Part shown: positions 19,315 to 40,754 of the stretch, one piece after another | Layout: the number at the start of each line of letters is the position of its first letter | Position numbering within the stretch: the first letter of the stretch is position 1 | Source of the DNA: Nitrospira sp. UW-LDO-01 | GTDB taxonomy: Bacteria > Nitrospirota > Nitrospiria > Nitrospirales > Nitrospiraceae | Reading direction: 5' to 3' | Length of the DNA stretch: 40,866 bases | Assembly: GCA_002254365.1 (NCBI GenBank) | Contig: NIUT01000048.1 | Coordinates: 1-40,866, forward strand | Program-made: the position numbers and the translations under genes | The notes under the pieces: model-generated | Seen by the model: the letters and a program-made list of their open reading frames with translations, nothing else | Told to the model about the DNA's origin: nothing | The model's database searches: none

Positions 19315-20133
19315 ATGGAATTTACTGACGAGCAAATAAATCGTTACAGCCGACACATTCTCCTGCCCGAGGTCGGGGGCAAGGGACAGAAGAAGATCGC
19401 CAAGTCCCGCATTCTTCTCGTCGGTGCCGGAGGTCTGGGCTCACCGGCTGCATTGTATTTGGCTGCCGCCGGCGTCGGGACGATCGGACTGATCGACAGC
19501 GATGTCGTGGACCTCACCAACCTGCAGCGCCAGGTGCTGCACTATACTCCCGACGTAGGACGCCCCAAGGTGCTCTCCGGTAAGGAAAAGATCCAGGCAT
19601 TGAATCCTGATGTGTCCGTCTCGATGTATGAAGAGCGCCTCACCGCCGGCAACGCGCTCAAAATCTTCAACGACTACGATGTCGTCATTGACGGCGTGGA
19701 TAATTTCCCGGCCAAGTTTCTGATCAATGATGCCTGTTTCTTCGCGAACAAACCATTGGTCCATGGCGGCATTCTCCGATTCGACGGACGTGTCACGACC
19801 ATCATCCCGAAGAAGTCGGCCTGCTATCGCTGCGTGTTCAAAGCGCCTCCGCCGCCTGGCCTTGTCGCCTCCTGCCAGGAAGCCGGTGTGATTGGTGTCT
19901 TGGCGGGCATCATCGGGACGATCCAGGCTACGGAAGCCTTGAAGCTGGTCCTCGGCATTGGACGGCCGTTGACCGACCGTATGCTGGACTTTGATGCCAA
20001 GAAGACGCAGTTCCGAGAAATCAAAGTTCGCCGCAATCCGAATTGTGCTCTCTGCGGAGAACATCCGACGATTACCGAGCTGTTTGACGATGGGGATCCT
20101 TATGCGGGGTGTGCCGTACGTCCCTCTGCATAA
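19315..20133 (+). CDS. moeB: MoeB/ThiF-type E1-like carrier-activating enzyme (copy 1)
   Basis: 272 residues, without a rhodanese domain. ATP site 'LLVGAGGLGSPAALYLAAAG' (about 34-53), 'DVVDLTNLQRQ' with the adenylation Arg, two zinc CxxC pairs ('CYRC' near 166 and 'CALC' near 240), and the conserved Cys in 'SCQEAGVIGVLAG'. It adenylates the C-terminal Gly of a ubiquitin-like carrier so that sulfur can be loaded. It lies 14 bases after the cysteine synthase gene. A close paralogue (21986-22795) follows four genes later. Confidence 0.92.
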   Translation: MEFTDEQINRYSRHILLPEVGGKGQKKIAKSRILLVGAGGLGSPAALYLAAAGVGTIGLIDSDVVDLTNLQRQVLHYTPDVGRPKVLSGKEKIQALNPDVSVSMYEERLTAGNALKIFNDYDVVIDGVDNFPAKFLINDACFFANKPLVHGGILRFDGRVTTIIPKKSACYRCVFKAPPPPGLVASCQEAGVIGVLAGIIGTIQATEALKLVLGIGRPLTDRMLDFDAKKTQFREIKVRRNPNCALCGEHPTITELFDDGDPYAGCAVRPSA

Positions 20134-21985: not shown

Positions 21986-22795
21986 ATGATCATGGAACTC
22001 TCTGAATTAGAAATTCAACGCTACAGCCGGCACATTATTCTTCAAGATGTGGGTGGCAAGGGCCAACTCAAGCTCAAGCGAGCGAAGGTCCTCTTGATTG
22101 GTGCAGGTGGCCTGGGGTCTCCAGCTGGGCTGTATCTCGCTGCGGCTGGTATCGGAACCATCGGTCTCGTCGATGGAGATGTCGTTGATCTTTCGAATCT
22201 TCAACGGCAAATCATGCACTCAACGGCCACGCTCGGAAAACCGAAAGTTGAGTCCGGCAAGCAGACGCTCTCAGCCATCAATCCGGAAATTACCATTAAC
22301 GCGTATCACCAATTAGTCGATGCCGACAATATTATCCCGCTCATCTCGCAATACGATATCGTGCTCGATGGCTCGGATAATTTCACCACCCGCTTTCTGG
22401 TGAATGACGCCTGTTTCTTCGCCAAAAAGACCCTGATCTCCGCCAGCATGTTCCGATTCGAGGGGCAGCTCACGGCAATCAAGCCACACCAAGGCTATCC
22501 GTGCTACCGCTGCCTCTATCCAGAACCTCCACCAGCCGGACTCGTGCCAAATTGTCAGGAGGCCGGCGTACTTGGTGTCCTAGCCGGCACGATGGGAATC
22601 TTGCAAGCGTCGGAAGCGATCAAGGAGATCCTTGGCATCGGCGAAACGATCGCGGATAAGCTGGTGATCTACGACGCGCTCGAGATGAAGTTCCGCAAGG
22701 TCGGCCGACCCAAAGATCCGGCCTGTCCACTGTGCGGGCCAAATCCTTCCATCACTGATCTGGGCGGTGATTACGCCGTCACTTGCACTATTTAA
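21986..22795 (+). CDS. MoeB/ThiF-type E1-like enzyme (copy 2)
   Basis: 269 residues, closely related to copy 1 (shared 'EIQRYSRHIIL..VGGKGQ', 'VLLIGAGGLGSPAGLYLAAAG', 'DVVDLSNLQRQI', 'CYRC', 'NCQEAGVLGVLAG', 'CPLC'). It should activate a carrier C-terminus by adenylation. An internal ATG two codons in is an equally good start. Having two paralogous E1 enzymes and two carriers suggests dedicated pairing. A palindromic repeat lies between this gene and the JAMM protease gene. Confidence 0.9.
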   Translation: MIMELSELEIQRYSRHIILQDVGGKGQLKLKRAKVLLIGAGGLGSPAGLYLAAAGIGTIGLVDGDVVDLSNLQRQIMHSTATLGKPKVESGKQTLSAINPEITINAYHQLVDADNIIPLISQYDIVLDGSDNFTTRFLVNDACFFAKKTLISASMFRFEGQLTAIKPHQGYPCYRCLYPEPPPAGLVPNCQEAGVLGVLAGTMGILQASEAIKEILGIGETIADKLVIYDALEMKFRKVGRPKDPACPLCGPNPSITDLGGDYAVTCTI

Positions 22796-25784: not shown

Positions 25785-27896
25785 ATGCTTGAACGTCTGA
25801 CTCAGGTTTCACTTGAGAAAATGGTGGCGATGGGTTTTGGGGCCGTACTCGTCCTCCTCTTCGGAATTGGGTTCGTCTCGTATTGGAATACAACCGACCT
25901 CATCGGTCGTGAAGTCCGGGTTGTGCACACCCATCAGGTACGAGAGGCGATCGAACACCTGCTGCATCTGATGGAGGATGCTGAAGACAGACAGAGATTT
26001 GATCTTCTGATCGGCGAAGACCAGTATCAGCGCTCGTATCGTGAGGCGAGACGGAATATCGACGCCAAGATACAACACCTTGCGGATCTCACATCCGATG
26101 ACGAGGCCCAGCAGGCACACCTGCTCGCCTTGCGTCAGTTGATCGGTCTGAGATTAGCACAGCTCAAAGAAACCATCGAGATACGGAATGCCGGACGGCT
26201 TGGACCAGCTGAACAGCGAGCCCATCTGAATGCCGGCAAAGCGCTCATGGACGAAATCCTCATGGTATTTAGTACGATGCGGGAGGAGGAGCAGCGTCAG
26301 CTGATGACCTGGTCGAGGCAAGCCGATCAGGCAGCGGCGTTCACGCTCACGTTCATCGTCATTGGAACCTTCTTGACGATTGGGCTCGCCATTGGTGGGG
26401 GAGCATTGATCTATTACGACCTGTCGAAGCGCCGCCAGGCTGAACAGGCTGCGATGATGGGCCATGTGCGACAAACCTTGATTTTGCGCAGTCTCCCCGT
26501 TGTGCTGTACTCCGCGAAAGGTTCCAGAGACTATGGCGCCTTGTGGGTGAGCGAGAACATTGAGAAGGTGGCAGGGTTTCCTGCACAAAACTTTCTGGAT
26601 GACTCATCACTGTGGGCATCGCGGCTTCATCCTGACGACCGAGACAAAACCTTCAGGACGTTCGACACGCTCTCACAAACCAACACACTGGCGACAGAGT
26701 ACCGGTGGCAGAGACGTGACGGCGAGTACCGCTGGTTTCGTAACCAAGCCATGCTGATCCGACAGTCAGACGGATCTCCACAGGAACTCATCGGTCTCTT
26801 GGCCGACATCACCGAAGAACGGCAGGCGAACGACCTGATTCGCCGACAGGCTGACATCATCAATCAAATCCAAGAATCGGTGATCACGGTTGATATGAAT
26901 GGCTACGTCACGAGCTGGAATCACGGAGCAGAGCTGCTGCTTGGCTATATGGCAATAGAGGCGCTCGGCAAGCACATCTCATTCGTGTACCCGGAAGAGG
27001 ACCGTGAGTTTCTGGAACGGCATGTCCTGGCTCCCGTGAGAGTCAAAGGCACTCACCAGATCGAAATCAGGAGGCGCACCAAGTCCGGGGCACTCAGGTA
27101 CGCTCACCTCTCGCTGACCTTGCTCCGGAACGATCGGGGTGATCCCACCGACATCGTCGGTTATTCCATGGACATCACCGATCGGAAGCGAGGCGAAGAG
27201 GCATTACTCAAATCTCGCAACCAACTGGCTGCGCTTGCCGTTCGCTTGGAGACGGTGCGAGAAGAAGAACGAGGAAGAATCGCCCTCGAAGTTCATGACG
27301 TCTTGGGACAAGCCTTGACTGGCCTCAAGCTGGATGTGTCATGGGTCTACAAGCAAATACTTGAATCCAAGGGCTCGCTCGAGCCATCTCCTGTCCTTTC
27401 AAGACTGGCGAGGTCACAGGAGCTCCTTGACACTACCATTCGATCGGTGAGGGAGATCGCAACGACCTTACGGCCCAGTGTGTTGGATCAACTCGGCCTG
27501 GAAGCGGCCATTGAATGGCAGGCACAAGAGTTTAGCCATCGGACTGGAATTGCCTGTACGACTAGTATTTCACCGGATCACATTCATGTGGACGCACAGC
27601 AGTCGACGGCGCTCTTTCGCATCCTCCAAGAGGTCTTGACGAACGTGGTACGCCACGCCCATGCTACTAACGTGAACATCAGGCTGGAAGAAACCTGTGA
27701 GCATGTCATGATGCAAGTCAGGGATAACGGCACAGGCATCACCGCTGTTGAACAGTCCGGACCTCAAGCTTTCGGCCTCCTAGGGATGCGCCTCCGTGCC
27801 CAACAGCAGGGCGGGACATTCGACATTCAGGGCACATCAGGAAAAGGAACAACGGTGACAGTCAAGATCCCGCTCGTGCACATACACAATGATTAA
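25785..27896 (+). CDS. Membrane histidine kinase with two PAS domains (NarX/HisKA_3 type)
   Basis: 703 residues. TM helix 1 (about 13-32), a periplasmic helical sensor of CHASE3 type (about 35-180), TM helix 2 (about 183-209), two PAS/PAC units (about 230-350 and 355-475), HisKA_3 dimerisation domain with the phospho-acceptor His504 in 'ALEVHDVLGQ', and an HATPase domain with 'LTNVVRHAHAT' (N box) and 'GLLGMRLRA' (G box). The stimulus is unknown. The response regulator overlaps its 3' end by 8 bases. ATG follows GGAAGG. Confidence 0.93.
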   Translation: MLERLTQVSLEKMVAMGFGAVLVLLFGIGFVSYWNTTDLIGREVRVVHTHQVREAIEHLLHLMEDAEDRQRFDLLIGEDQYQRSYREARRNIDAKIQHLADLTSDDEAQQAHLLALRQLIGLRLAQLKETIEIRNAGRLGPAEQRAHLNAGKALMDEILMVFSTMREEEQRQLMTWSRQADQAAAFTLTFIVIGTFLTIGLAIGGGALIYYDLSKRRQAEQAAMMGHVRQTLILRSLPVVLYSAKGSRDYGALWVSENIEKVAGFPAQNFLDDSSLWASRLHPDDRDKTFRTFDTLSQTNTLATEYRWQRRDGEYRWFRNQAMLIRQSDGSPQELIGLLADITEERQANDLIRRQADIINQIQESVITVDMNGYVTSWNHGAELLLGYMAIEALGKHISFVYPEEDREFLERHVLAPVRVKGTHQIEIRRRTKSGALRYAHLSLTLLRNDRGDPTDIVGYSMDITDRKRGEEALLKSRNQLAALAVRLETVREEERGRIALEVHDVLGQALTGLKLDVSWVYKQILESKGSLEPSPVLSRLARSQELLDTTIRSVREIATTLRPSVLDQLGLEAAIEWQAQEFSHRTGIACTTSISPDHIHVDAQQSTALFRILQEVLTNVVRHAHATNVNIRLEETCEHVMMQVRDNGTGITAVEQSGPQAFGLLGMRLRAQQQGGTFDIQGTSGKGTTVTVKIPLVHIHND

Positions 27897-28527
27897 CATT
27901 TTACTCGCAGACGACCATCCGTACCTTCGCCGAGGTCTCAGCCAGATCCTCACCGATGAATTTCCAGGAGTCGTGATTGGTGAGGCATCGAATGTCCCTG
28001 AGTTGCTGGAACAGGCACAGAAACACCGATGGGATGTGGTGGTATTGGATCTCACGATGCCGGGAAGAGGCGGATTGGAGGGGTTGCATGAGCTGAAACG
28101 GCTCCTCCCACACCTTCCCGTTTTGGTCTTGAGCGTGCACCCGGAAGACCAGTTTGCCGTGCGTGTGTTGCGTGCCGGTGGTGCGGGGTATCTGACAAAG
28201 GAAAGCGCTCCGCAGGAATTGGTGCACGCTATTAAAGTGATCTTGAGAGGGGGGAAATATATCACACCCAAAGCGGCTGAGCTGCTGGCATCGCACCTTC
28301 AGCAACACGGCGATCACGACCAACCGCTCCACAGTTCGTTGTCCGATCGAGAGGATCAGGTATTCCGTTTGATCGCCGGCGGCAGCACGATCACGGAGAT
28401 TGCCGACCAGCTGTCCCTCAGCATCAAAACCGTCAGTACCTATCGAGCCCGCATCTTGGAGAAGCTGAATCTCAAGACCAATGCAGACCTGGCACGCTAT
28501 GCGGTCCAGTATCACCTCGTGGAATAA
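27889..28527 (+). CDS. NarL/FixJ-family response regulator
   Basis: 212 residues. Receiver domain with the acidic pair Asp8-Asp9, phospho-acceptor Asp54 ('VVLDLTMPG') and the conserved Lys in 'GYLTKES'. A LuxR-type HTH follows (about 145-205; 'LSDREDQVFRLIAGGSTITEIA', 'LSIKTVSTYRARILEKL'). It is the cognate partner of the overlapping HisKA_3 kinase and should act as a DNA-binding regulator. Targets are unknown; the small-protein cluster downstream is a candidate by position only. Confidence 0.94.
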   Translation: MINILLADDHPYLRRGLSQILTDEFPGVVIGEASNVPELLEQAQKHRWDVVVLDLTMPGRGGLEGLHELKRLLPHLPVLVLSVHPEDQFAVRVLRAGGAGYLTKESAPQELVHAIKVILRGGKYITPKAAELLASHLQQHGDHDQPLHSSLSDREDQVFRLIAGGSTITEIADQLSLSIKTVSTYRARILEKLNLKTNADLARYAVQYHLVE

Positions 28528-28805
28528 TCACGATCGCTGCCCCTTCCCTATTCTTCCCAACATAGTTCCTCGCTCCTGACCGATCACCCATTGATCCCTC
28601 TCCGCTACCGTGCCCCATCCCTATCGGACGATTCCTACAGACCACACCGGACAACTCCCACAGGGACGAGCGCCCCAGTCCTATCCTCCAGAATACGTGG
28701 ATGGGGTTTACTTTGGCCTGCACGCTCTGGACGAGGATGACCGCATGGCAGACCATGCAAGGCAAACCTGTCCAGATACCAAAACCGGAAGAAGGGACAA
28801 ATACA
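28528..28805. other. Leader region of zinc-ribbon gene with conserved element
   Basis: Pyrimidine-rich spacer after the response regulator. It contains the diverged copy (about 28625-28707) of the leader element also found at 34662-34737 and 38137-38212. Confidence 0.5.
28625..28707 (+). repeat. Conserved leader element, copy A (diverged)
   Basis: Shares the ordered blocks TTCCTACAGACC, TCCCACA, CCCC.GTCC.ATCCTC and GAAT with copies B (34662-34737) and C (38137-38212). It lies about 100 bases before the start codon of a zinc-ribbon gene, as does copy C. Confidence 0.6.
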
Positions 28806-29015
28806 ATGGGTTGTCGCCGTTGCGGAGGAATGTTAGCGGCCGAGCTTGTTACCGCAATGTACCAATTGGTGTGTGAGAAGAGAGTCATGACGGGTCCCTA
28901 CTGTCATTGCCACGACATTGACGGTTCAATGTGGGCCTCTTTGTTGCCAGATGAGAAGGACCCAGCTGTGGAGCCGCCGAATGACGGCAGGACATCGGAA
29001 TGGAAACAACCATGA
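28806..29015 (+). CDS. Small Cys-rich (zinc-ribbon-like) protein, copy A
   Basis: 69 residues from ATG 28806; the frame extends upstream without a better start. 'GCRRCGGMLAAEL' supplies CxxC, and 'VCEKRV..GPYCHCHDIDGS' supplies further Cys/His ligands. A clear paralogue is at 38325-38534, with the same spacing and flanking leader. The stop overlaps a downstream ATG (ATGA), as in the paralogue where a receiver gene follows. Probably a small regulatory or nucleic-acid-binding protein; function unknown. Confidence 0.65.
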   Translation: MGCRRCGGMLAAELVTAMYQLVCEKRVMTGPYCHCHDIDGSMWASLLPDEKDPAVEPPNDGRTSEWKQP

Positions 29016-29134
29016 CCGACGTTGAAACATGTAGGTTGCTTCTGACGGTCGTACAGAGACACGGCTCCAAAGCGACCGCGAGAGGCCGGACGAGTGTACC
29101 TTACGAAACATATACAAGGGAGCCTCCAGCATAG
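29012..29134 (+). CDS. Possible coupled 40-residue ORF
   Basis: ATG overlaps the zinc-ribbon stop (ATGA). The product is short, basic and without recognised features. In the paralogous locus this position starts a receiver protein, so this frame may be a chance or decayed remnant. Confidence 0.2.
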   Translation: MTDVETCRLLLTVVQRHGSKATARGRTSVPYETYTREPPA

Positions 29135-29207
29135 GTACGCCTCACGCTGTCGATAACCCATTATTCAGAGAGCTCATACGAGGGCACTGCTTACGGAGGA
29201 GGGAATC

Positions 29208-29870
29208 GTGAAGGGGACCACCATAGTGAATCACACCGCTACGACCGTGCCACAAGGACCACACAGAAGCGCACTGCTCCAAGGGCTTCTCGACCGGACG
29301 GATGTTCCGAGCGAATCTCGTCGGATACAACAAGAGATGAACCACCATGTACGTGCCGGAGAATCCAACCTCAACACTGAGATCGTCATCAGGTTGCTGA
29401 ATGAGGCCCTGGGTATGGCCGTTATCTCCATTCTTCGCTACAAGCGCCGTTACTTCATGACTGCCGAGATCAGGTCTCGTCGGGTGGAGACGATGTTGGT
29501 CCAACATGTCGCTGATGTGCAGGCATATGCCGATCAATTGGCTGAGCATATCGAGCAGCTGGGCGGTCAGGCGCTTTTGCCATTTGAACGGCTGCTGAAC
29601 CGGAGCCACGCAGAGCAGGTCGAAGTGAATTCGTTAGCAGAGATGATCATGGCCGATCTGTTCTCCGAACAGGGTGCGATCCATAACTATCGAAAGCTCA
29701 TCGCCTCTATCGGCAACGATGATCAGAGGACCAGGCAAGTATTGGAGAGGATTCTGGCGCAGGAAGAAGCGCACGCGGAGAGTCTGGCCGGTCTCTTGAG
29801 GGATAGACCGTCACAGTCTTGCTGTGACGATGCAATTGCACCACATGGAGCACAGAAGGAGAAGTTATGA
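29208..29870 (+). CDS. Ferritin-like protein with incomplete di-iron site
   Basis: 220 residues from GTG, preceded by GGAGGAGGG. A long unstructured N-terminus (about 45 residues) precedes a four-helix ferritin-like domain. Expected ligands Glu66 (helix A), Glu144 (helix C) and Glu176/His179 in 'EEAHAE' (helix D) are present. In helix B the usual Glu-x-x-His is Val104...Tyr107 in 'VQAYADQLAEHIEQLGG'. One half of the metal site is therefore missing, and normal ferroxidase activity is doubtful. It could bind one metal, heme or act structurally. Its stop overlaps the next zinc-ribbon gene. Confidence 0.78.
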   Translation: MKGTTIVNHTATTVPQGPHRSALLQGLLDRTDVPSESRRIQQEMNHHVRAGESNLNTEIVIRLLNEALGMAVISILRYKRRYFMTAEIRSRRVETMLVQHVADVQAYADQLAEHIEQLGGQALLPFERLLNRSHAEQVEVNSLAEMIMADLFSEQGAIHNYRKLIASIGNDDQRTRQVLERILAQEEAHAESLAGLLRDRPSQSCCDDAIAPHGAQKEKL

Positions 29871-30109
29871 TGTGTCACCGCTGTCGAGGGTTCCTGGTAT
29901 ACCATACCTTCTATGGTTTGAATCTCAAGGCAGACGCTCGCCACACCACTACACGTTGCATCAATTGTGGGCACGTCGAAGATGCTGTCGTTCGTGCCAA
30001 TCGGGTCCGCGCTTCGGTGAGTACACCGGCAACGCCGCACGAAAGGGTCCCGACGGGCGACGTGGAATGCATCAAGATGCACTCGAAAGAGCCGGCATCG
30101 ATCGGATGA
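29867..30109 (+). CDS. Small zinc-ribbon protein coupled to ferritin-like gene
   Basis: 80 residues. CHRC (3-6) and CINC (31-34) form a zinc ribbon; the remaining part is polar with a Pro/Thr-rich tail. The start ATG overlaps the ferritin-like stop (ATGA), so the two are translated together. Unlike copies A and C of the other small Cys-rich family, it lacks the Cys-His-Cys motif. Function unknown. Confidence 0.6.
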   Translation: MMCHRCRGFLVYHTFYGLNLKADARHTTTRCINCGHVEDAVVRANRVRASVSTPATPHERVPTGDVECIKMHSKEPASIG

Positions 30110-30211
30110 GCAGGTATTGCTGACACTTGGGCTCCTCTCCCAATCACTCATGGCAGGGGAGCCTGAGTACCTATGTTGAGTTGTCGTTCTAATCCTAGGT
30201 CGAGAGGTGCG

Positions 30212-30766
30212 ATGATAAGCGAAAGCATCAGGCGACATCACCCGATATCACAGCGGCAGCTCGGACAGCCGCCGGTCGACGAAGTAAGCCCTCTGAATGA
30301 CTCGGCGCGCTACGGGTCCGGCATTCTGCTGTTCTCTCGCCGAAAGAAATTGCTGCATGCGGATCGCCGAGCTTTGGAACTGATAGCCCATCCCGATCAA
30401 CTTCTGTGTGATCCAGGCTGCGGAATCCATGTGGGGCCAGCGTGCGAACTCTTGAACGCCGTTCAAGCAGCCTTGGACCATCGCAGAGCGGCCAGTATCT
30501 GGGAGCCCTTTGAACTGAAGCATGTCATCTTTGAGCAAAGGCGCAAACTTGTGATGCGCGGTCTTGGACTCATAGATCGGGAGTCCCACGATGACTCACG
30601 TATTATGATCCTCCTGGAGGAGGTTCACCTTCGACAAGAGCACTGTGAGTCCCAGGAACAGGCAATCAGGATATTTCCTGGGAAAAGCGGCACAGGAATT
30701 CTGGGATCAGCGTACCTCGGGTCTGCTCACGGAGTGTTTGATAGGGGCAGTGATGGAGCGCCTTGA
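30212..30766 (+). CDS. PAS-like regulator lacking its HTH
   Basis: 184 residues from ATG 30212, preceded by GAGAGGTG. Residues about 30-145 resemble the PAS-like sensor part of LuxR-type regulators I associate with Nitrospira ('GSGILLFSRRKKLLHADRRALELI', then 'LVMRGLGLIDRESHDDSRIMILLEEV'). Where such proteins continue into a LuxR HTH, this one ends in a Gly/Ser-rich tail of about 45 residues without HTH character, and no HTH is found in the other frames downstream. It is either a truncated gene or a sensor-only protein. Confidence 0.5.
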   Translation: MISESIRRHHPISQRQLGQPPVDEVSPLNDSARYGSGILLFSRRKKLLHADRRALELIAHPDQLLCDPGCGIHVGPACELLNAVQAALDHRRAASIWEPFELKHVIFEQRRKLVMRGLGLIDRESHDDSRIMILLEEVHLRQEHCESQEQAIRIFPGKSGTGILGSAYLGSAHGVFDRGSDGAP

Positions 30767-30820
30767 CCATGCGTCCGACAGGAACTGACCATGCATCGGA
30801 TACCAGCGGAGGGTTCAACA

Positions 30821-31075
30821 ATGAAGCTCTGGAAGCATGACGTACCAGGTTCATCACAGATTTCGTCGAGCATCATCGAGGATGAGCGCCGTCAGAAGCC
30901 TGTTCACGAGAAGCGGGTCGGTCTATCGACGAGAGTGCGGGGAATCGATTGTATGCTGGCGGATATCGAGATGCAGATTCGGAAGCTTCGGCAGGAGAGG
31001 ATCCATCTCAGTCTGGTGCGAGAAGGATTGACTAACAGGCTCTCAGGGTTACGCCGGAACGTAGAGGTTGCATGA
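30821..31075 (+). CDS. Small coiled-coil hypothetical protein
   Basis: 84 residues. The start is ATG 30821 because GGAGGG lies 8 bases upstream; an in-frame ATG 30 bases earlier lacks one. The C-terminal half ('IDCMLADIEMQIRKLRQERIHLSLVREGLTNRL') is a strong amphipathic helix likely to form a coiled coil. Function unknown. The SpoIIAA-Usp gene follows about 110 bases later. Confidence 0.55.
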   Translation: MKLWKHDVPGSSQISSSIIEDERRQKPVHEKRVGLSTRVRGIDCMLADIEMQIRKLRQERIHLSLVREGLTNRLSGLRRNVEVA

Positions 31076-31188
31076 GATGCCTGAGTGCACACAGAAACCA
31101 TTGATTGCTCTCCGACATCTGTGAGGTTCTGAAAAGCGAGCGGCCCTGTATCCGCAAGATAGACATCCTGGTCTCAGAGGGGGAACAT

Positions 31189-32085
31189 ATGATTGAGATC
31201 TTGAACGGATTTCCTCCAACAGTCATGGGGTTTGCCTGCAAAAACCACGTGACCAAAGAAGATTACGAACATGTTTTGACTCCCACCCTCGCACAAGCTC
31301 TTGCAGACTACCAGAAGGTCCGCCTGTATTTTCAGATAGACCCCAACTTTGCCGGGGTGGAACCGAGCGCGTTGTGGGAGGACTGCAAACTAGGAATGAA
31401 GCATCTCTTTCGCTGGGACCGCATCGCCGTCGTGACCGATGTAGAGTGGATTCGGCATATATTCAAAGCCTTCAGCCCTATGATTCCCTGCACGGCAAGG
31501 GTGTTTCGGCTCGACGAGATATCGATAGCAAAAGACTGGGTGATTGAGGGGGCAGCGGAACAAGAGCCGGCCACACTTACGAATAGGAGAGAGAACTTCC
31601 TGATTGCAGTGGAGGACTCTGCAGCATCGCTCAAGGCGGTCTCCTACGTCAGTCAGATCATTCGGGGACGCACGGATATCCACGTGCGTCTCCTGCATGT
31701 ACTCCCCCCCATTCCACCAGGACTTCTGGAGTTCGGAGGGGCTGAACAACCTCAACTCGAGCAGCGTCTCAGCGGCGAACTTCGTCAAGACCAAGCACGA
31801 TGGATTGAAACGGCGAAGCACAACGCCCAGGCGTCGCTCGATAAAGCTCTGGCTATCCTCCTCCAGGGTGGATTGTCCCCAAACACAGTCAGTACAAGTT
31901 TTTCTTCCCCCATTCACCGTCCTGATGTCGCTCAGGAGATCCTTCAGGTGGCCCAGACTTGGAAATGTGGGACGCTGGTTGTTGGCCGACACACCCGTTC
32001 GTGGATCAAGGAAATTCGTTCCACGCATGTCGGCGAGGATCTCGTCCGGAAGGGACAAGGATTTGCCATTTGGGTGGTCGAGTAG
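31189..32085 (+). CDS. SpoIIAA-like / universal stress protein (UspA) fusion
   Basis: 298 residues from ATG 31189, preceded by AGAGGGGG. Residues 1-120 match the SpoIIAA-like (STAS-fold) family: 'MIEILNGFPPTVMGFACKNHVT', 'DRIAVVTDVEWIRHI' and 'ARVFRLDEISIAKDWV'. Residues about 150-298 are a UspA domain: 'NFLIAVEDSAASLKAVSYVSQI' at its start and 'GTLVVGRHTRSWIKEI', 'THVGEDLVRKGQGFAIWVV' at its end. The nucleotide-binding Gly-x-Gly motif is altered, so ATP binding is uncertain. Each domain is usually a separate protein; fusion suggests a stress-response adaptor. Confidence 0.82.
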   Translation: MIEILNGFPPTVMGFACKNHVTKEDYEHVLTPTLAQALADYQKVRLYFQIDPNFAGVEPSALWEDCKLGMKHLFRWDRIAVVTDVEWIRHIFKAFSPMIPCTARVFRLDEISIAKDWVIEGAAEQEPATLTNRRENFLIAVEDSAASLKAVSYVSQIIRGRTDIHVRLLHVLPPIPPGLLEFGGAEQPQLEQRLSGELRQDQARWIETAKHNAQASLDKALAILLQGGLSPNTVSTSFSSPIHRPDVAQEILQVAQTWKCGTLVVGRHTRSWIKEIRSTHVGEDLVRKGQGFAIWVVE

Positions 32086-32192
32086 CCTGTGCCGGGTGTA
32101 TGACGAAGCACAAAACTTTCGCTGTTCTTGCTCACGATAGAGGGAGCATATCTCGTTTGCTCATCATCGACTGCTCTACACGGCAGGTACTC

Positions 32193-32610
32193 TTATCCTG
32201 ACAGCCTCTTTGGAACACATGGAGATGAACGTTCATGATCATGCAGTTGCCTCGCCGACTCATGGACGCGGTCAGGCCATACTGGCGGACCTAATCTTGA
32301 TAAGCCTGGGCACAATACTGGGCGCCACGATCGGAGTGGTGGATCAGTCCCGGGTGTGGGCGTTTCGCCCCCACTGCCATGATCAGCGCCTGACTCACCA
32401 AGTCCGTCGTCATTCGGCTCTCCATCGCATGACCGACCACCTCGCAGGTAAAGAGATCCTTGACCTCGGCCACATACAACCACCCTTCCTCCTTGTGGGC
32501 ATAGATGAGGGCGGTCACCCAGGTCTCGTTCGGGCGTGTCGCGACAAACATTTGGGCCAAGACATTCTCCGCCACCGGCTGGGCAAGGGTGAAATTCAGG
32601 ATATTCATTC
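32193..32610 (-). pseudogene. IS3-family transposase (OrfB) remnant
   Basis: Minus-strand frames encode the DDE domain of IS3 OrfB: 'TRPNETWVTALIYAHKEEGWLYVAEVKDLF', 'EVVGHAM', 'HPGLIHHSDRGAQYCAQAYQ', a stop, then 'YGLTASMSRRGNC'. The first catalytic Asp (usually in 'TDITY') is gone, an in-frame stop follows the second Asp region, and a frameshift follows 'RRGNC'. The N-terminal half, OrfA and terminal repeats are not visible. It is a decayed insertion between the SpoIIAA-Usp gene and the porin gene. Confidence 0.8.
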
Positions 32611-32745
32611 ATACCTTCGTTGGGAATAGCCACCAGGCACCCACTTATTTTTCCGAGGAGTCTTACCGTGACAAGCTAAGACATTTCCTTTTCCACTAGG
32701 CCAGAGACCGCTGAGTCCAGAGTCACACCAGAAAGGAGTCGCGAT

Positions 32746-34242
32746 ATGCGGATGTGGCTGATACTTGGACTCTTGGCGTGGCATCTTTCGCTCGTTCCCG
32801 CCGCGAGCGCGGACGATCAGATCCAGATCCTTGAAGAGCGCGTGAAAAAGCTTGAACAGCGTCTCAAGGAGCAGGACCACCGCGAACAGGAAGGCCTTCC
32901 ACTTGGGGTTGAACGACCTGAAATGATGAAGCCTCCGGGCTCCTCGGCTGAGCCTGGCCTGGGCCCCTTACCCGAAGTAGGGCGCGACCAGCGCACTCCC
33001 CAGGCCAGCCCGTTGTCCTTCGGGACGACAGGCTCGGGACGTCTCATCTATGCCAAACCGTTTGTCTCTTCGCCTAAAGCCATTGTCGGCGGCTACATGG
33101 ATTTCTTTTATACGATGACGCAAAAGGGGCCCGTGACCCCGCAGGGGAGTATCAACAATGGCGCCGTCGGGAATCCAGGCTTGGGCCAACTCAGTAACTC
33201 CTTCGATCAACAGCGGTTTGTCCCCTTCATCTATGCCGACATTTCCGAGCATCTAAAAATGGCGGCGGAAGTCGAGTTCGAGCATGGTATTCGAGAAACG
33301 TCCGAGCACGAACTCGAGGTGGGAGTGGAATTTGCCACGCTCGATTATCTCATCCATGAGCGGATCAATTTTCGTGGCGGGATCATCTTATTACCCGTGG
33401 GAAAATTCAATTTACTCCATGACTCTCCGCTCAACGATCTCGGGCCGCGCCCTCTCATGAGCACCTTCGTCATTCCCACCACAATGTCGGAGACCGGCGC
33501 CGGCTTCTATGGAACCTTCTATCCCGGGAGGACTTCCAAGCTCGATTATGAGCTCTATCTAACAACCGGCTCAAACGGATATGAGGCCGATGGCGCGCCG
33601 CTGATCACAGAGCTGGCTGGTCTGAGCGGCACGCGCCAACGAGCCTCGTCTGCCTCGGACGGCCTCTCGAACCACAATGGGAAAACGGTCGTCGGACGCT
33701 TAGCCTACAGTCCGATGCTGGGAATCGAAATTGCCGGCTCGGGCTACCATGGGAGCTACGGTCCACAGGGTGACCAGAAATTGTCCATTATGGCCGTGGA
33801 CTGGACGTTGCAGCGTGGGCCGTTTGAGCTGATTGGAGAAGCAGCGTGGACCTATGCCCAGGGGAACTCAAAATTGCTGGATGGCACCCCAAATATCGAT
33901 CCGGTGACCGGGCGGTTGGCCCCGCAGCGGAGTGCCGGCTACTATATACAGGGCAATTACCATTTTATGCCGCCGCTCTTCACGAATTTCTCCAAGAAGC
34001 ACTTTGGGGAAGGTTCGATCTTTACGGCGGTGGTGCGGTACGACCGGGTGAACACCAATTTGGATCACCCCGGAGGCTTGGGAGATTTGGAGACGCTCAC
34101 CATGGGCCTCAATTTCAGACCGTTGGAGGACGCGGTCTTTCGGCTCGCCTATCAATTTAACATGCGCGCCACCAATGCCTATACGCGTATGCCAATCGCA
34201 GGAGATAACGCCTTAATCCTTTCCATGGCCACGTACTTTTAA
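32746..34242 (+). CDS. Outer membrane porin with N-terminal coiled coil
   Basis: 498 residues. Signal peptide (about 1-22), a coiled coil (about 25-50, 'IQILEERVKKLEQRLKEQ') that probably trimerises, a Pro/Gly linker, then a long beta-barrel with alternating hydrophobic strands and a terminal aromatic residue (ends Ala-Thr-Tyr-Phe), the signal for outer membrane insertion. The pattern fits DcaP- or phosphate-porin-like trimeric porins. The substrate is unknown. ATG follows AAAGGAG. A 43-base perfect palindrome lies 61 bases after the stop. Confidence 0.85.
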   Translation: MRMWLILGLLAWHLSLVPAASADDQIQILEERVKKLEQRLKEQDHREQEGLPLGVERPEMMKPPGSSAEPGLGPLPEVGRDQRTPQASPLSFGTTGSGRLIYAKPFVSSPKAIVGGYMDFFYTMTQKGPVTPQGSINNGAVGNPGLGQLSNSFDQQRFVPFIYADISEHLKMAAEVEFEHGIRETSEHELEVGVEFATLDYLIHERINFRGGIILLPVGKFNLLHDSPLNDLGPRPLMSTFVIPTTMSETGAGFYGTFYPGRTSKLDYELYLTTGSNGYEADGAPLITELAGLSGTRQRASSASDGLSNHNGKTVVGRLAYSPMLGIEIAGSGYHGSYGPQGDQKLSIMAVDWTLQRGPFELIGEAAWTYAQGNSKLLDGTPNIDPVTGRLAPQRSAGYYIQGNYHFMPPLFTNFSKKHFGEGSIFTAVVRYDRVNTNLDHPGGLGDLETLTMGLNFRPLEDAVFRLAYQFNMRATNAYTRMPIAGDNALILSMATYF

Positions 34243-34303
34243 GCTCTGTCGCAATGCAGGTATTCCGCACCATGATACCACCAACTCCTGCTCATGCGTT
34301 GTT

Positions 34304-34346
34304 CTTTCTGATGACCCGCACCAGAATGGTGCGGGTCATCAGAAAG
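34304..34346. terminator. 43-base perfect palindrome after the porin gene
   Basis: A 20-bp perfect stem (CTTTCTGATGACCCGCACCA and its complement) with a 3-base loop GAA. No T-run follows on either strand. It could be a bidirectional terminator or mRNA-end stabiliser, or a palindromic mobile repeat. Confidence 0.65.
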
Positions 34347-34438
34347 CCTCATGATCCCACTGCATGCAGCTCACGATCGAGTTAGGGGATTGAGGTTGAA
34401 ATAACTGCGCGACACACACCACCCGACTACACAATTAG

Positions 34439-34631
34439 AGTGCCATCCTTGACGACAGACTGTCTCGAGAGAAAGGTGCGTGGCGCTTCTGAGATCAGCT
34501 CAAACCAATCCTGTTCTCGCCGCACAACGCAAAAGCTGTGCTCACAATTCTTGAACGGGATACCTTTTTGATCACCGAGAAGTTGTGCGGCATCGTCACT
34601 GGATCAAATGAAGAGTCATCTGACGCCCCCT
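34439..34631 (+). pseudogene. Decayed paralogous ORF, copy B
   Basis: Homologous to 37614-37841 over the whole frame. Aligned products share Pro-His-(Asn/Asp), Glu-Arg-Asp-x-Phe and Gly-Ser...Asp-Ala-Pro, with mostly conservative changes between (Ile/Val, Lys/Arg, Leu/Phe), the mark of former coding sequence. A TGA at 34490-34492 stands where copy C has TGG. DNA similarity extends upstream to about 34395. Family not recognised. Confidence 0.5.
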
Positions 34632-34661
34632 CACCTACTGTAGCTGGGTGCTTTCTTATCA

Positions 34662-34737
34662 GATACTTCCTACAGACCGCATCAGCCAATTCCCACAAGT
34701 ATGAAGGCCCCTGTCCGATCCTCTTGAATGGGGAAAT
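34662..34737 (+). repeat. Conserved leader element, copy B
   Basis: 76 bases nearly identical (2 differences) to 38137-38212. It ends about 120 bases before the start of a receiver gene. Confidence 0.85.
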
Positions 34738-34858
34738 CAGGTGTACTTCATGCAACAGTAGTGGATGTCGAACAGGTGTTGGGCCAGCCGACCTCCGGCC
34801 AATTGCTCGACACTGGACAACGACGCTTCCTGTGTCACCAGGATAGCGGGAGGACAGG

Positions 34859-35272
34859 ATGATAGGAGAGAGCACATGTGTGCTAGTCGTCGACAATGAG
34901 GCAACGGTGCGCCATCTCATTATTGAGCATCTTGAGCGGCACTCGATTGCCGCGGTGGCAGTGGAAGATGGATTGCAGGCCTTGAGACTACTCCACGAAC
35001 GTCCGTTTGACGCCGTGATTACCGATCTCTGTGTGCCGTATTTTGATGGTTTTGATCTCCTCTGCCAATGTCACCTTGTGTGGCCACAGCTACCCGTGAT
35101 TCTCATGTCCGTGAGTCTGGCTGATGAGATCCTTCAACTGGCGATAATGGAGGGAGCTGCCGCATGTCTACCGAAGCCAGTGAATACGGGCAAGCTGATC
35201 GATGTTCTTCGGGAAGTCATCATATATCCTGTCTCGTCAATGGAGGCCACAACGATCCCACGTTCGCCATGA
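34859..35272 (+). CDS. Stand-alone receiver (response regulator) protein
   Basis: 137 residues, a single receiver domain with no output domain. Asp12 and Glu14 in 'VVDNEATV' form the acidic cluster, Asp56 in 'ITDLCVP' is the phospho-acceptor, and Lys in 'CLPKPV' is conserved. It likely works as a phosphotransfer or protein-binding switch. ATG follows GGGAGGACAGG. Upstream are leader copy B and a decayed ORF; unlike the locus at 38.3 kb, no zinc-ribbon gene precedes it. A lipoprotein gene follows. Confidence 0.88.
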   Translation: MIGESTCVLVVDNEATVRHLIIEHLERHSIAAVAVEDGLQALRLLHERPFDAVITDLCVPYFDGFDLLCQCHLVWPQLPVILMSVSLADEILQLAIMEGAAACLPKPVNTGKLIDVLREVIIYPVSSMEATTIPRSP

Positions 35273-35337
35273 ATGGTCTCGAACTGCGATCGCCGACGGG
35301 AGCTCCCTCCTATCTTTGGAAGAAAGGAGTGTCACCC

Positions 35338-35949
35338 ATGCGTATCATTGGATTGATCGCGATAAGTCTGTGGTTGGGTGCGTGCTCAGGTACTCCGATG
35401 TTTCCCCCCGAAGTGACGAAAGATGTCGAGGCCAACAGCTTTGACGCCAAGGCCTGGGAGCAGGAAGCCTATCAGCCCTCACACACCACATTTGTTCCAC
35501 ACAAGGTAGAGTTGGCCGGTGAGATTATACGAGTCATTCAGAAATCAGATCGACTGGTCATTCTGGCCGAAGAGAGACCACTCGATACCCACCTTGCATC
35601 GAGATCAACGAACGATCAACAGAACGGCGCACCCTGGTTTGCCGTCACCTTCGAAGGGTCCGTGGAGCCGAGATTATTACAAACGGGGAATCGGCTTTTT
35701 ATAATCGGCACAACGTACCGAGCCGGCCCAGAAATGTTCGGCGGCGCACCACGGGTGCTGCCGCATCTGAAGGCGCAATGCCTCCACATTTGGGATACTG
35801 AGGGGGTAAAAAACAAGTATTGGGTTTCCGATTCCGGCTCGGTCCAATACAAGCCGGAAGAACGCACGATCTGTCTTGAGAACAAGCCAGTTGGATCCTC
35901 GTCCATGAATAGCGACCGTTATGTGAAGCATGCCCTTGATGGCTCATAA
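35338..35949 (+). CDS. Slp-like lipoprotein (second copy)
   Basis: 203 residues from ATG 35338, preceded by AAAGGAG. Lipobox Leu-Gly-Ala-Cys near residue 15. The core 'SFDAKAWEQEAYQPSHTTFVPHKVELAGEIIRVIQKSDRLVILAEERPL' and later 'GNRLFIIGTT', 'VLPHLKAQCLHIW' follow the Slp pattern, but more loosely than 24559-25089. It should be an outer membrane or periplasmic lipoprotein. First of three lipoprotein genes in a row. Confidence 0.72.
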   Translation: MRIIGLIAISLWLGACSGTPMFPPEVTKDVEANSFDAKAWEQEAYQPSHTTFVPHKVELAGEIIRVIQKSDRLVILAEERPLDTHLASRSTNDQQNGAPWFAVTFEGSVEPRLLQTGNRLFIIGTTYRAGPEMFGGAPRVLPHLKAQCLHIWDTEGVKNKYWVSDSGSVQYKPEERTICLENKPVGSSSMNSDRYVKHALDGS

Positions 35950-36291
35950 CGCAGGCCCGTTTGTGATGCGAAGGCTTGCACCCTATGCTGGTAACCAGAA
36001 GAACCTCCGTACGGATGCCACGGAACGATTCAGGCGCATGTGATCTGGCAGATGCCGGAGGTGCAACGAAATCAGTCACCTCACCTCAAGCAGGCAGGTG
36101 TGGCGAACGATGGATGGCAACCGATCATATTGGATCAAGGGGTAGGCCCTCGGCAGGAGACAGTGTGTCCTGCAATGCTCATTGGGTATCACACGCATGG
36201 GAGCATCGTTGCTTCTTATATGATGGTGGACTCCTAACTCTTCGTCGGCATCGTCCACTATCACTCCATCGAAGACACCGGAGGTGACTTC
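35950..36291. other. Intergenic stretch between lipoprotein genes
   Basis: About 340 bases. A 65-codon frame (36040-36237, start Met-Ile-Trp) exists without a ribosome binding site or recognised content. Otherwise nothing evident. Confidence 0.4.
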
Positions 36292-36663
36292 ATGAGACCC
36301 TCTGCCCTCAGTTCCCTCCTACTTGGCGTCCTCCTCCAAGTAAGCTGCGGCGCCACACCTACCCCTCCGCTGGAGATGACGACGCTTCATCCAGGAGGCG
36401 ATCATGAGACAATCGCGTACCACTACCACCATGAAGCAATGCTCGCACGTCAACAAGCCGAGGAGTTGGCCGCCCAGGCCGTCGTGTATGCACAACTTTT
36501 TGGACTAAAGTCCGACTGGGTATCCGGCACCACGCTCTTAGTCCAGTTCTATCAAGAAATAGCACAAGAACAAGACCGACTTGCCGAACAGCACCTGAAA
36601 CTCGTGAACGGTCGGTCTTTTCATGAACCGGCCGATCGCAAGATCGTTAACTTGCCACACTAA
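36292..36663 (+). CDS. Small lipoprotein, hypothetical
   Basis: 123 residues from ATG preceded by GGAGGTGA. Lipobox Gln-Val-Ser-Cys (Cys19). The mature part is helical and His/Gln/Ala-rich ('YHYHHEAMLARQQAEELAAQAVVYAQLFG') with a conserved-looking 'SDWVSGTTLLVQFYQEIAQEQDRLAEQHLKL'. I have seen similar short proteins in Nitrospira and relatives, without a function. It lies 24 bases upstream of the SPFH lipoprotein gene and is likely co-transcribed with it. Confidence 0.72.
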   Translation: MRPSALSSLLLGVLLQVSCGATPTPPLEMTTLHPGGDHETIAYHYHHEAMLARQQAEELAAQAVVYAQLFGLKSDWVSGTTLLVQFYQEIAQEQDRLAEQHLKLVNGRSFHEPADRKIVNLPH

Positions 36664-36687
36664 GAGTGGCGCTATGGGGAGGAAACT

Positions 36688-37518
36688 ATGGCACGCACAT
36701 CCCTGACCTGTTTTATCGCCGCGCTCTTGTTGTTGATCACAGCGTGCGGTACCACCATCCATCCAGGTCAGCGAGGGCTGTTCTGGCATCCGCTCGGCCA
36801 GGGACTTTCCCAAACGCCTCTAAAAGATGGTTTTTACTGGCTTGCGCCATGGAACAATGTCTATGTCTACGACGTCCGCTGGCAAAGCCATACCGAGGAG
36901 ATTGACGCCTTAAGCGCAGATGATCTCCAAGTGCTCATCAAAGCGGCAATTATCCTCCGGCCGATCGCGGACGAGCTGTATTTCCTGAATCAAGAACTCG
37001 GCAATGATTACTACACCCGTGTTGTCAGACCCCAGTTCATGGCCGCAGTAAGAAGCGTCGTGTCCGGCTATAACATGGTCTCGGTGCCGGAAAAGAGTAC
37101 GGAGATCTCTGCTAAAGTGAGAGCGGTCGTGGTGGAGAATCTGAAAGGTCGGCACTTAGAAGTCCAAAACATCGCCGTCTCCGATGTCGACTTTCCGCAA
37201 ATCGTCCTGCGGGCTATTGAGCAGAAGCAGGCGAAGGAACAGGAGAAAGAACAAAAGGAATTTGAGCTCACCATCGCCGCAAAGGATGCCGACATTGCTC
37301 GTACCAGAGCGAAAGGTGAAGGCGATGCGATCCGGATTCGAGCTGAGGGTGAGGCCGAGGGACTCCGCATTCGGGCTGTGGGCCAGGCGCAGGCCCAGGA
37401 GACCATTACCAAAACACTGACGCCAGCCTATCTCCAATACAAGTTGTATGACAGTTCGAATGCGAAGATGGTCATTCTGCCGGAGCATATGAAGGTACCG
37501 CTCATCGTCAATCCCTGA
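36688..37518 (+). CDS. SPFH/prohibitin-domain lipoprotein
   Basis: 276 residues. Lipobox Ile-Thr-Ala-Cys near residue 20, then an SPFH (prohibitin/stomatin) domain (about 28-180; 'GQRGLFWHPLGQGLSQTPLKDGFYWLAPWNNVYVYDVRWQ') and a long Glu/Lys/Ala-rich coiled coil with 'RAKGEGDAIRIRAEGEAEGLRIRA' repeats (about 185-245). SPFH proteins assemble into membrane rings or scaffolds. Most are anchored by a helix; lipid anchoring places this one in the periplasm. Possibly an envelope stress or quality-control factor with its small lipoprotein neighbour. Confidence 0.88.
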   Translation: MARTSLTCFIAALLLLITACGTTIHPGQRGLFWHPLGQGLSQTPLKDGFYWLAPWNNVYVYDVRWQSHTEEIDALSADDLQVLIKAAIILRPIADELYFLNQELGNDYYTRVVRPQFMAAVRSVVSGYNMVSVPEKSTEISAKVRAVVVENLKGRHLEVQNIAVSDVDFPQIVLRAIEQKQAKEQEKEQKEFELTIAAKDADIARTRAKGEGDAIRIRAEGEAEGLRIRAVGQAQAQETITKTLTPAYLQYKLYDSSNAKMVILPEHMKVPLIVNP

Positions 37519-37613
37519 AAATCATCGATAGATGAGACATGAGATCTCGTTGATGCGCAAACCGACACAACCCTTCATCTGCAGGTCACAGAGACGGCCA
37601 AATGATTGCGTGA

Positions 37614-37841
37614 CCCACAGCACCCTGCTACACGATCGCGAGACCAATCCTGACAACCGAGCTGGATCAGGGAGATGTGACCTGTCAATTCTGGTATCAC
37701 GGCAAACTAATCGCGTTCTTGCCGCACGACACAAGAACCCTGGTCGCTCTTTTTGAACGGGATCCCTTTCGAGTGATTAGGCAGTTTCTCGACATCATCT
37801 CTGGATCAGTTAGAGATTTTGGTGACGCTCCCACATCGTAG
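37614..37841 (+). pseudogene. Decayed paralogous ORF, copy C
   Basis: A 75-codon open frame with no ATG, homologous to 34439-34631. It reads '...FWYHGKLIAFLPHDTRTLV' then 'ALFERDPFRVIRQFLDIISG', protein-like in composition. A GTG lies inside, but without a ribosome binding site. Family not recognised. Confidence 0.5.
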
Positions 37842-38136
37842 ATCGAAAAATTGTGTTGTGCGGCTCTGGAATCCACATGTCATACGCATGACCATCAATT
37901 CATCTCAATCCGATCTGGATGACACCCGCGGAGAAGAGCCGGGATGCCCTCAGTGGAGCCAGACTAACATATCGACGAGAGAGGCAGAAACCGCCGCCCA
38001 CGCGACAACAAACAAGCGAACTGCCTAGGGCACAAAGTCCGTTGCCATCGATGAGAGCTCCCGCTGGGGCCTGTCAAGGGCTGATGCGCCTTCCGGCGGG
38101 AATGAACTCCTACAGGGCTTGAGTCTGTTTGTGTCG

Positions 38137-38212
38137 GATACTTCCTGCAGACCGCATCAGCCAATTCCCACAAGTATGAAGGCCCCTGTCCTATCCTCTT
38201 GAATGGGGAAAT
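38137..38212 (+). repeat. Conserved leader element, copy C
   Basis: 76 bases nearly identical to copy B (34662-34737) and related to copy A (28625-28707). It ends 112 bases before the zinc-ribbon start. Confidence 0.85.
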
Positions 38213-38324
38213 GAGTTTTACTGCCCTACAGAGATGATCGATGGGATGGACCTCCTGCACTGGCTGATGAACCACATGAGGAACCCTCCGCACGTGATGA
38301 GTTCGAAAAGAGGGGAACAGTTGG

Positions 38325-38534
38325 ATGAGCTGTCCGCGTTGTGGAGGAATGTCAGCAACCGAGCTGGCCGAAGCGATGGACGCATTGGTTTGTGAAAAGA
38401 CAATTTTTGAAGGCTCCTACTGCCATTGTGACGACATCGAGGGTTCAAGTCCGACAGGTTCTCGGCCAGAAGAGAAGACCAATCCTCTGGAGCAAACGAA
38501 TGACCCCATAACATCGGAAAGGAGAGCACCATGA
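38325..38534 (+). CDS. Small Cys-rich (zinc-ribbon-like) protein, copy C
   Basis: 69 residues, paralogue of 28806-29015: 'SCPRCGGMSATELAEAMDALVCEK' and 'GSYCHCDDIEGS' align with the same Cys and His positions. The C-terminal 25 residues are polar and variable. The stop overlaps the ATG of the receiver gene (ATGA), so receiver and zinc ribbon are made together. Likely metal-binding; role unknown. Confidence 0.7.
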   Translation: MSCPRCGGMSATELAEAMDALVCEKTIFEGSYCHCDDIEGSSPTGSRPEEKTNPLEQTNDPITSERRAP

Positions 38535-38944
38535 TCGGCTATGGCAAACGTGTATTGTTGTTCAATGATACGAGAGCACGAGGGGTTTCACTCGTCACGA
38601 TGCTTGAGCACGAGGGATTTATTGTTGTGCATGCACAGGATGAAGCTCAGGCACGCTTCGAGATGCAGTGCCGTCACTTTGATGCGGTCGTCGCCGATTA
38701 TCCCCTCCCTGATCTCGCTGGGCTCGACATCCTAAGACAACTGCAGATGGCGTGGCCGGAGACACCGGTCATTCTCTTTTCGGAAGTCGACTGGAGTAAA
38801 TGTGATATGGATATGTATCTAGGAACATTTTCATGGATTCGGAAATCACCAGCTCCGGACATTCTGCTGAGTATGCTGGCCTGTGCGATGGACCAGAAGA
38901 TGACCGGCAAAGACGTACAGGTACCAGAACTGGTTGGCAGATAG
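38531..38944 (+). CDS. Degenerate stand-alone receiver protein
   Basis: 137 residues, single receiver domain, same length as the protein at 34859. Asp56 ('VVADYPLPD') is kept, but the acidic pair is reduced to one Asp13 in 'LLFNDTRARG', and the segment before the conserved Lys is altered ('FSWIRKSPAPD'). Phosphorylation may be weak or absent. ATG follows GGAGAGCACC and overlaps the zinc-ribbon stop. A small winged-helix gene follows 18 bases later. Confidence 0.82.
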   Translation: MIGYGKRVLLFNDTRARGVSLVTMLEHEGFIVVHAQDEAQARFEMQCRHFDAVVADYPLPDLAGLDILRQLQMAWPETPVILFSEVDWSKCDMDMYLGTFSWIRKSPAPDILLSMLACAMDQKMTGKDVQVPELVGR

Positions 38945-39556: not shown

Positions 39557-40754
39557 ATGCCTGACAAGAGACCGTGAGTACTGATTGTAGGCGGTGGATT
39601 CGGCGGGATGTATGCGGCGTTAGAATTTGAACGTGCGTTGGCGCGGGGAGCCGACCAGGACGTCACCCTTATCAACCATGATAATCGTTTCTTTTTACTC
39701 CGATGCTGCACGAGGTCGCCGCAACCGACCTCGATAGTACCAATATCGTCAGTACGATTCGTCGACTGCTCCGTCGGGTAACCTTTTTTCATGGCGAGAG
39801 CGACGCCATTGATCTCGAGCAGCGACGGGTTGAGGTGTCGCATGGGCATGAAAACCATTCCCATGCATCGCCCTACGACTACCTCGTGCTGGCCCTTGAG
39901 TCAACCACAACCTTCTACAATATCCCCTGCTTGGCCGACCGCGCGCTCACGATGAACTCGCTGAGCGACGCGGTTTTTCTGTAAAGCCCCCTCATCACAA
40001 ACCTGGAAGAGGCAGACTTTGAATGTGCGGCATCTCTCCGCGAACCCCTCCTGAATTTCGCCGTGGCTGGAGACGGGTTTACCGAATCGAAACCATCGCG
40101 GCCATGAATGACTTTCTGCGGGAGGCGGTGCCGTTCTTCCCACATATTCGAAACAACATGCTTCGGCTCATCCTGGTCAATTCGGGAAAGGCAATCTTGC
40201 CTGAATTCAGAGAGAAGCTTGGGACCTATGCGCAGCGAAAGCTCACGGAACAGAAGTTGGAAATCCATTCTAACTGTCAAGTCACCGCCGTAACGGACCG
40301 GGAGGTAACGCTCAGTAATGGGACGGCCGTGACGACCAATACGCTGGTCTGGACTGCCGGAATCAGCCCACACGCACTCTTGGACACACGACCGTGCCAG
40401 AAAGTGCGGGGCCGGATCCCTGTCAACGAGTACCTGGAAGTTCCCGAGTGGCCTGACGTCTTGGCCTTAATCGACTGTGCGGTCATGCCTGATCTCAAGA
40501 CGGGGACATCCCGCCCTCCGACCACGCAACACGAGCGACCTGAGGGAAAGGTAGCAGCAAAAAATACCCTAGTCAGCGTGAGAGGCGGTCGGATGAAACC
40601 GTTCCTCTACTCGACGATTGGGCTCCTGGCGCCCATCGGGAAACGAACCGGCGTCGCGAATATTCTCGGCGTAAACTTTTCAGGCTTCATTGCCTAGTGG
40701 TTGTGGCGGACAATCTATTTGTTGAAACTCCCTCAATTTAAAAAGAAAGCCTAG
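39557..40754 (+). pseudogene. ndh: Type II NADH dehydrogenase (NDH-2) pseudogene
   Basis: Starts 'MPDKRP', then a TGA at 39575-39577, then 'VLIVGGGFGGMYAALEFE', the FAD motif. A one-base loss in the T-run near 39691-39698 shifts the frame; 'TPMLHEVAATDLD' continues in the new one. A TAA at 39982-39984, another frameshift near 40086 ('AGDGFT' to 'IETIAAMNDF'), and TAG codons at 40695-40697 (in 'FSGFIA-stop-WLWRTIYL', normally WW) and 40752-40754 follow. At least six lesions make this clearly dead. The rest matches NDH-2 ('TLVWTAGI', 'KPFLYSTIGLLAPIGKRTGVANI'). Confidence 0.9.

Follow-up and report, generated by a model that had tools for sequence, protein, structure and literature searches.

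A repeated element most likely serving as a promoter/operator common to the units of a Nitrospira stress-type gene cluster and driven by the linked two-component system

The window, that is the whole stretch of DNA analysed here, comprises 40,866 nucleotides of Nitrospira sp. UW-LDO-01 (assembly GCA_002254365.1, contig NIUT01000048.1, positions 1 to 40,866). It carries a sensor kinase and a response regulator gene, followed by genes for small zinc-ribbon-like proteins and stand-alone receivers, and three copies of a repeated element:

25785..27896 (+): sensor histidine kinase of 703 aa (Pfam: CHASE3, PAS domains, HisKA_3, HATPase), the presumed input
27889..28527 (+): NarL/FixJ-type response regulator (receiver and GerE HTH), the presumed activator of the element
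28618..28718 (+): element copy 1 (P1), a proposed promoter/operator; profile match of 92.7 bits, conservation island
28806..29015 (+): small zinc-ribbon-like protein 1, 69 aa, CxxCGG...YCHC, 52% identical to 38325-38534
34653..34754 (+): element copy 2 (P2), profile match of 87.9 bits
34859..35272 (+): stand-alone receiver 1, 137 aa (Pfam Response_reg, 1.4e-19)
38128..38229 (+): element copy 3 (P3), profile match of 88.9 bits
38325..38534 (+): small zinc-ribbon-like protein 2, 69 aa, 52% identical to 28806-29015
38531..38944 (+): stand-alone receiver 2, 137 aa (Pfam Response_reg, 1.2e-11), with orthologues in relatives L054, L055, L056 and L058

The product of 27889-28527 belongs to the NarL/FixJ type, with a receiver domain (PF00072, 1.1e-26) and a C-terminal GerE, LuxR-type HTH (PF00196, 1.1e-16), and the gene of receiver 2 overlaps that of zinc-ribbon protein 2 by 4 nt. 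Apart from losses in single genomes, the cluster has the order sensor kinase, NarL-type regulator, element, small zinc-ribbon protein, stand-alone receiver, small conserved protein, universal stress protein and type-II NADH dehydrogenase. The kinase is conserved upstream of the regulator in all eight relatives, where the zinc-ribbon gene is likewise represented by orthologues or a remnant. The window's own type-II NADH dehydrogenase gene (39608-40697), full-length in relatives L052-L055 and L058, is broken over several frames and is either a pseudogene or the product of assembly errors. Also in the window are a SpoIIAA-like domain fused to a universal stress protein domain (31105-32085) and, between this gene and that at 32746-34242, a minus-strand frame (32291-32608) resembling by eye the C-terminal part of an IS3-type transposase (HSDRGAQY motif).

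A repeat search ranked the three copies as the top direct-repeat family of the window; a second long direct repeat of 130 nt, with 72% identity, occurs at 19675-19804 and 22352-22481. An earlier note on this sequence had described a shared leader of about 76 bases, with two copies differing at only two positions and a diverged third. Both points were borne out: the 76-nt segments 34662-34737 and 38137-38212 differ by one A/G and one G/T change, and the direct-repeat search recovered the diverged copy at ~28618-28718. The flanks of the two similar copies, described as far less alike, fall to 26-32% ungapped identity over 60-120 nt on either side, which is chance level. From the copies as originally delimited, the distances to the start codons at 28806, 34859 and 38325 are 99, 122 and 113 nt, in agreement with the claimed 100-120 bases. 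The true element is longer, of about 100 bp: its conserved columns begin at ~28618, 34653 and 38128 and end with a TTTACT/TGTACT hexamer whose last base is 28712, 34747 and 38222. BLAST of the whole 3.9-Mb genome returned the query itself (E = 4e-54) and the other two copies (2e-32 and 3e-8), with no further copy below E = 1, and a sequence profile detected nothing beyond these three in the same genome at E values up to 10. Each copy lies ahead of a zinc-ribbon or receiver gene, and no copies scattered without relation to these genes were found.

Comparison of the orthologous interval among genomes delimited the element sharply. Identity is ~90% at the end of the regulator coding sequence, 51-65% in the next spacer, 70-85% in the element, 43-53% in the leader from the element to the start codon, and 90% again at the start of the zinc-ribbon gene. 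Such an island of conservation between poorly conserved spacers has the pattern of a promoter/operator and not of a transcribed leader RNA. In the alignment of the copies, site 1 (TRTCRG-N6-CCTACA) occupies columns 5-22, CCCACA columns 40-45 and CCTATC columns 63-68, the latter two at +23 and +46 relative to the half-site of site 1; the distal blocks are [T/G]ATCCT (columns 65-70) and T[T/G]TACT (columns 90-95). These features map to the window as follows:

28622..28639 (+): P1 site 1, TATCGG-N6-CCTACA, proposed primary regulator dimer site, from the alignment
28657-28662 and 28680-28685 (+): P1 further half-sites, CCCACA and CCTATC
28707..28712 (+): P1 hexamer TTTACT, proposed -10, conserved in the alignment and at the same offset in the fourth promoter (see below)
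34657..34674 (+): P2 site 1, TATCAG-N6-CCTACA
34680-34697 (+): P2 second site, CATCAG-N6-CCCACA
34742-34747 (+): P2 proposed -10, TGTACT
38132..38149 (+): P3 site 1, TGTCGG-N6-CCTGCA
38155-38172 (+): P3 second site, CATCAG-N6-CCCACA
38217-38222 (+): P3 proposed -10, TTTACT

Sites 2 and 3 of the element are mainly single half-sites; copies 2 and 3 have a more complete repeat at the second site, exactly 23 bp after site 1. The best triple direct repeat has a period of 23; out of 400 permutations each, 2 did as well when columns were permuted and 1 when blocks were permuted. Taken by itself, the inverted symmetry of site 1 is not significant, as 321 of 400 column permutations equal it. The palindrome is perfect in genome G001 and at contig position 41410 and partial in the other copies, and it is only because of these two perfect instances that the symmetry gains weight.

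Searches with a profile built from nine element copies revealed 13 homologues (66-99 bits) in 9 of 79 Nitrospira genomes, all from organisms recorded as Nitrospira MAGs. All 13 lie inside one gene cluster and are oriented toward the next gene. Beyond the genus, no other match above 20 bits was obtained in a phylum sample of 395 genomes, and the six weak phylum matches that were examined all fell within open reading frames. When 85,000 species genomes were scanned with a loose pattern, this Nitrospira cluster and three unrelated places were the only matches; a scan of viral contigs gave no match. Each of the nine genomes has one copy directly behind the same NarL/UvrY-like regulator gene. In eight of them, including that of the window, this copy follows the regulator stop codon by 102-111 bp and precedes the zinc-ribbon gene by ~170-180 bp; G001, the ninth, has the element 61 bp past the regulator and retains a mere remnant of the zinc-ribbon gene.

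Orthologues of the regulator (87-97% identical, with next-best paralogues at 54% or less) occur in exactly 10 of the 79 genus genomes. The element is present in nine of these; in the tenth, the contig stops 100 nt past the regulator gene. Among the 79 genomes, the element is absent from those lacking the regulator. The zinc-ribbon gene has the same distribution, reduced to its remnant in G001. Decay of this gene with retention of the element was seen at L059 (G001) and at L053 (G069, there only behind the second copy). The co-occurrence of element and regulator is partly shared synteny, as the two lie side by side in every genome; more independent evidence for a link comes from the extra copies at a distance from the regulator. 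No element copy was found upstream of the kinase and regulator genes themselves, so that autoregulation is not seen.

A further indication came from beyond the window. The ideal site TGTAGG-N6-CCTACA, derived from the reverse complement of CCTACA and perfect in G001, was noted before the test. Its sole perfect occurrence in the whole genome of UW-LDO-01 is at contig positions 41410-41427, which lie 544 bp beyond the end of the window. An ORF (41535-42290) that begins 125 bp further downstream encodes a 251-aa, probably secreted protein conserved in G036. This fourth promoter (contig 41410-41500) contains GATCCT and TGTAAT at the offsets of the element, separated from site 1 by unrelated DNA: columns 61-95, the -35/-10 block, score in the top 0.012% of positions, with offset 0 the best of 100, and columns 23-60 score at chance level. 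If the hexamer is a -10, both promoter types have site 1 centred 88.5 bp before the start. Single palindromes with at most one mismatch are not enriched genome-wide (4, versus 12 for the reversed control), and given this result and the permutation test only the composite motif was relied on (site 1, [T/G]ATCCT and T[T/G]TA[C/A]T, their spacing fixed and at most 3 mismatches allowed). It was found at 13 places in the nine whole genomes, all in the cluster and including the fourth promoter; the reversed control gave 1. As these very sites served to define the motif, what is informative is the absence of any other place. Recurrence of the blocks at the same spacing in the fourth promoter provides independent support for a promoter/operator.

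Proposed as possibly "a common promoter, operator or RNA element" in the earlier note, the repeat now appears to belong with the promoters and operators, in view of its conservation in nine genomes, its orientation, its confinement to one cluster and the fourth promoter; the RNA part of that proposal was not supported, no stable or covarying structure being detected and the putative leader RNA downstream showing no conservation. We consider it probable that the element is a promoter with an operator, about 100 bp in length, used by the linked two-component system to turn on the genes of the cluster together. The sequence, position, orientation and conservation of the element, its 23-bp repetition, its cluster confinement and the spacing shared with the fourth promoter are direct observations; from these we infer that the linked regulator binds the element and activates rather than represses, along with the start of transcription and the signal. 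The phosphorylated regulator would bind as a dimer at site 1 (TRTCRG-N6-CCTACA), centred 88.5 bp before the predicted start, and would then occupy weaker sites, CCCACA and CCTATC, ~23 and ~46 bp downstream on the same helix face, giving site centres at -88.5, -65.5 and -42.5. The last site would overlap the -35 region ([T/G]ATCCT), so that RNA polymerase could be recruited to a weak core promoter with the -10 T[T/G]TA[C/A]T; for P1, transcription is predicted to start near 28719. Copies 1 to 3 would start units headed by zinc-ribbon protein 1, by receiver 1, and by zinc-ribbon protein 2 with receiver 2, respectively, and the fourth, diverged promoter would drive the probably secreted protein.

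A shared promoter might instead be read by another regulator or an alternative sigma factor, with YTCCCACA-N15-GTCCTATC (starts 23 nt apart) as -35 and -10 and the linked regulator a mere neighbour. Boxes 2 and 3, 23 nt apart start-to-start, would indeed form a -35/-10 pair with 17-nt spacing; the element has no match to a sigma-70 consensus promoter, its core promoter fitting the consensus poorly, and part of the link with the regulator is synteny. However, the same 23-nt step joins boxes 1 and 2 equally strongly, CCCACA is missing from the fourth promoter of this genome, which retains site 1 and the ATCCT/TKTAMT blocks, the conserved cluster contains no recognised sigma gene, and genomes that lack this regulator lack the motif as well, all of which makes this alternative unlikely. 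The location of the element ~100 nt before start codons would also suit a structured RNA leader, riboswitch-like or attenuator, controlling the downstream genes. Yet no Rfam family was matched, single copies fold no better than shuffles in four of five cases, the consensus fold reaches only -1.5 kcal/mol with 6 pairs and no conserved covarying structure, and the stretch from element to start codon is the least conserved part of the region; such a leader is thus very improbable.

The idea of a small conserved protein-coding gene across the element, prompted by one minus-strand frame that is open in 13 of 13 copies with fewer amino-acid changes than expected, is harder still to sustain: neither open frame has a start codon common to the copies, some copies lack any start codon before the nearest stop, and conservation ends at the element edges. 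That the repeat was under constraint or recently copied had been offered as alternatives, and both hold: the constraint acts across species, and the 34.6-kb and 38.1-kb copies are related by recent copying. These two are 97% identical over 76 nt, with common states absent from other genomes, and 87% identical over ~100 columns, as opposed to 62-75% to other copies; copy 2 therefore looks like a recent operator copy. Close relatives also have a duplicated element, the second copy preceding a zinc-ribbon remnant and NADH dehydrogenase in G069 and a short Slp-like frame and NADH dehydrogenase in G036. The window has the counterpart of this second copy at 38.1 kb and an additional third at 34.7 kb before a receiver gene. 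Copying accounts for how nearly identical copies 2 and 3 are, yet leaves the cross-species conservation unexplained, and a mere duplication or mobile repeat devoid of regulatory function has little to commend it, with three copies in the genome and none elsewhere, an orthologous position conserved across nine genomes, and an orientation always toward the next gene.

The promoter/operator reading finds parallels in several known systems. The nearest described family of the regulator is UvrY/SirA/GacA, the best of all NCBIfam matches; its score of 181.5 bits against the corresponding equivalog (NF007018) is below the curated cut-off of 280. It is 38% identical to E. coli UvrY, with a similar recognition helix (SIKTVSTYRARILEKL vs SPKTVNSYRYRMFSKL). 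UvrY recognises an 18-bp inverted repeat, TGTAAG-N6-CTTACA (PMC4682653), and site 1 of the element shares this 6-N6-6 geometry, with a half-site that is related (CCTACA vs CTTACA) and a palindrome that is perfect only in G001 and at contig position 41410. In contrast to that family, the Nitrospira element adds sites at 23-bp steps, and its predicted targets are protein-coding stress-type genes, not CsrB/RsmZ-like small RNAs, of which no Rfam match was found within the window. A phased array is known at the fha promoter of Bordetella, where BvgA dimers are bound 22 bp apart, with the strong site furthest upstream, further dimers on one face at a fixed two-helical-turn step, half-sites around TTCCTA, and the last dimer abutting the -35 (PMC7250471). 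The proposed arrangement of the element, with its period of 23, matches such an array; the step is 23 bp rather than 22, the Nitrospira regulator is not orthologous to BvgA and would bind in another organism and at other targets.

The DevR/DosR dormancy regulon of Mycobacterium is rich in universal stress proteins, and its DevS kinase has haem/GAF input domains. It differs from the present case in its site sequence, in the CHASE3 and PAS input of the Nitrospira kinase, which is not of the haem/GAF type, and in that the Nitrospira regulon seems confined to one cluster. The likeness lies in a NarL-type regulator with primary and secondary sites, the proximal one overlapping the -35 (PMC3029386).

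Based on these data, a control sequence precedes three, in fact four, gene groups beside a sensor/regulator pair and is most likely a DNA switch for this neighbourhood. The element is most likely a promoter/operator common to the units of a Nitrospira stress-type cluster and driven by the linked two-component system. A bolder view, which we regard as doubtful, is that the cluster may be a self-contained signalling island, in which the kinase/regulator pair would drive several promoters and, among their products, the two stand-alone receivers and two small zinc-ribbon proteins would feed back on that kinase as phosphate sinks or adaptors, and in which the operator may have been transplanted from copy 3 to copy 2, recruiting a new receiver gene. 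The literature search found no described promoter element of this kind; the element is undescribed in the literature searched, though its kind is known. Nitrospira is a main nitrite oxidiser of soils and waste water, and its gene regulation is little mapped. With a linked sensor/regulator pair and a precise predicted operator, start site and target list, the regulon is directly testable, and the 80-bp operator that appears to have recently spread to a new receiver gene would represent a clear small case of regulon growth by operator copying.
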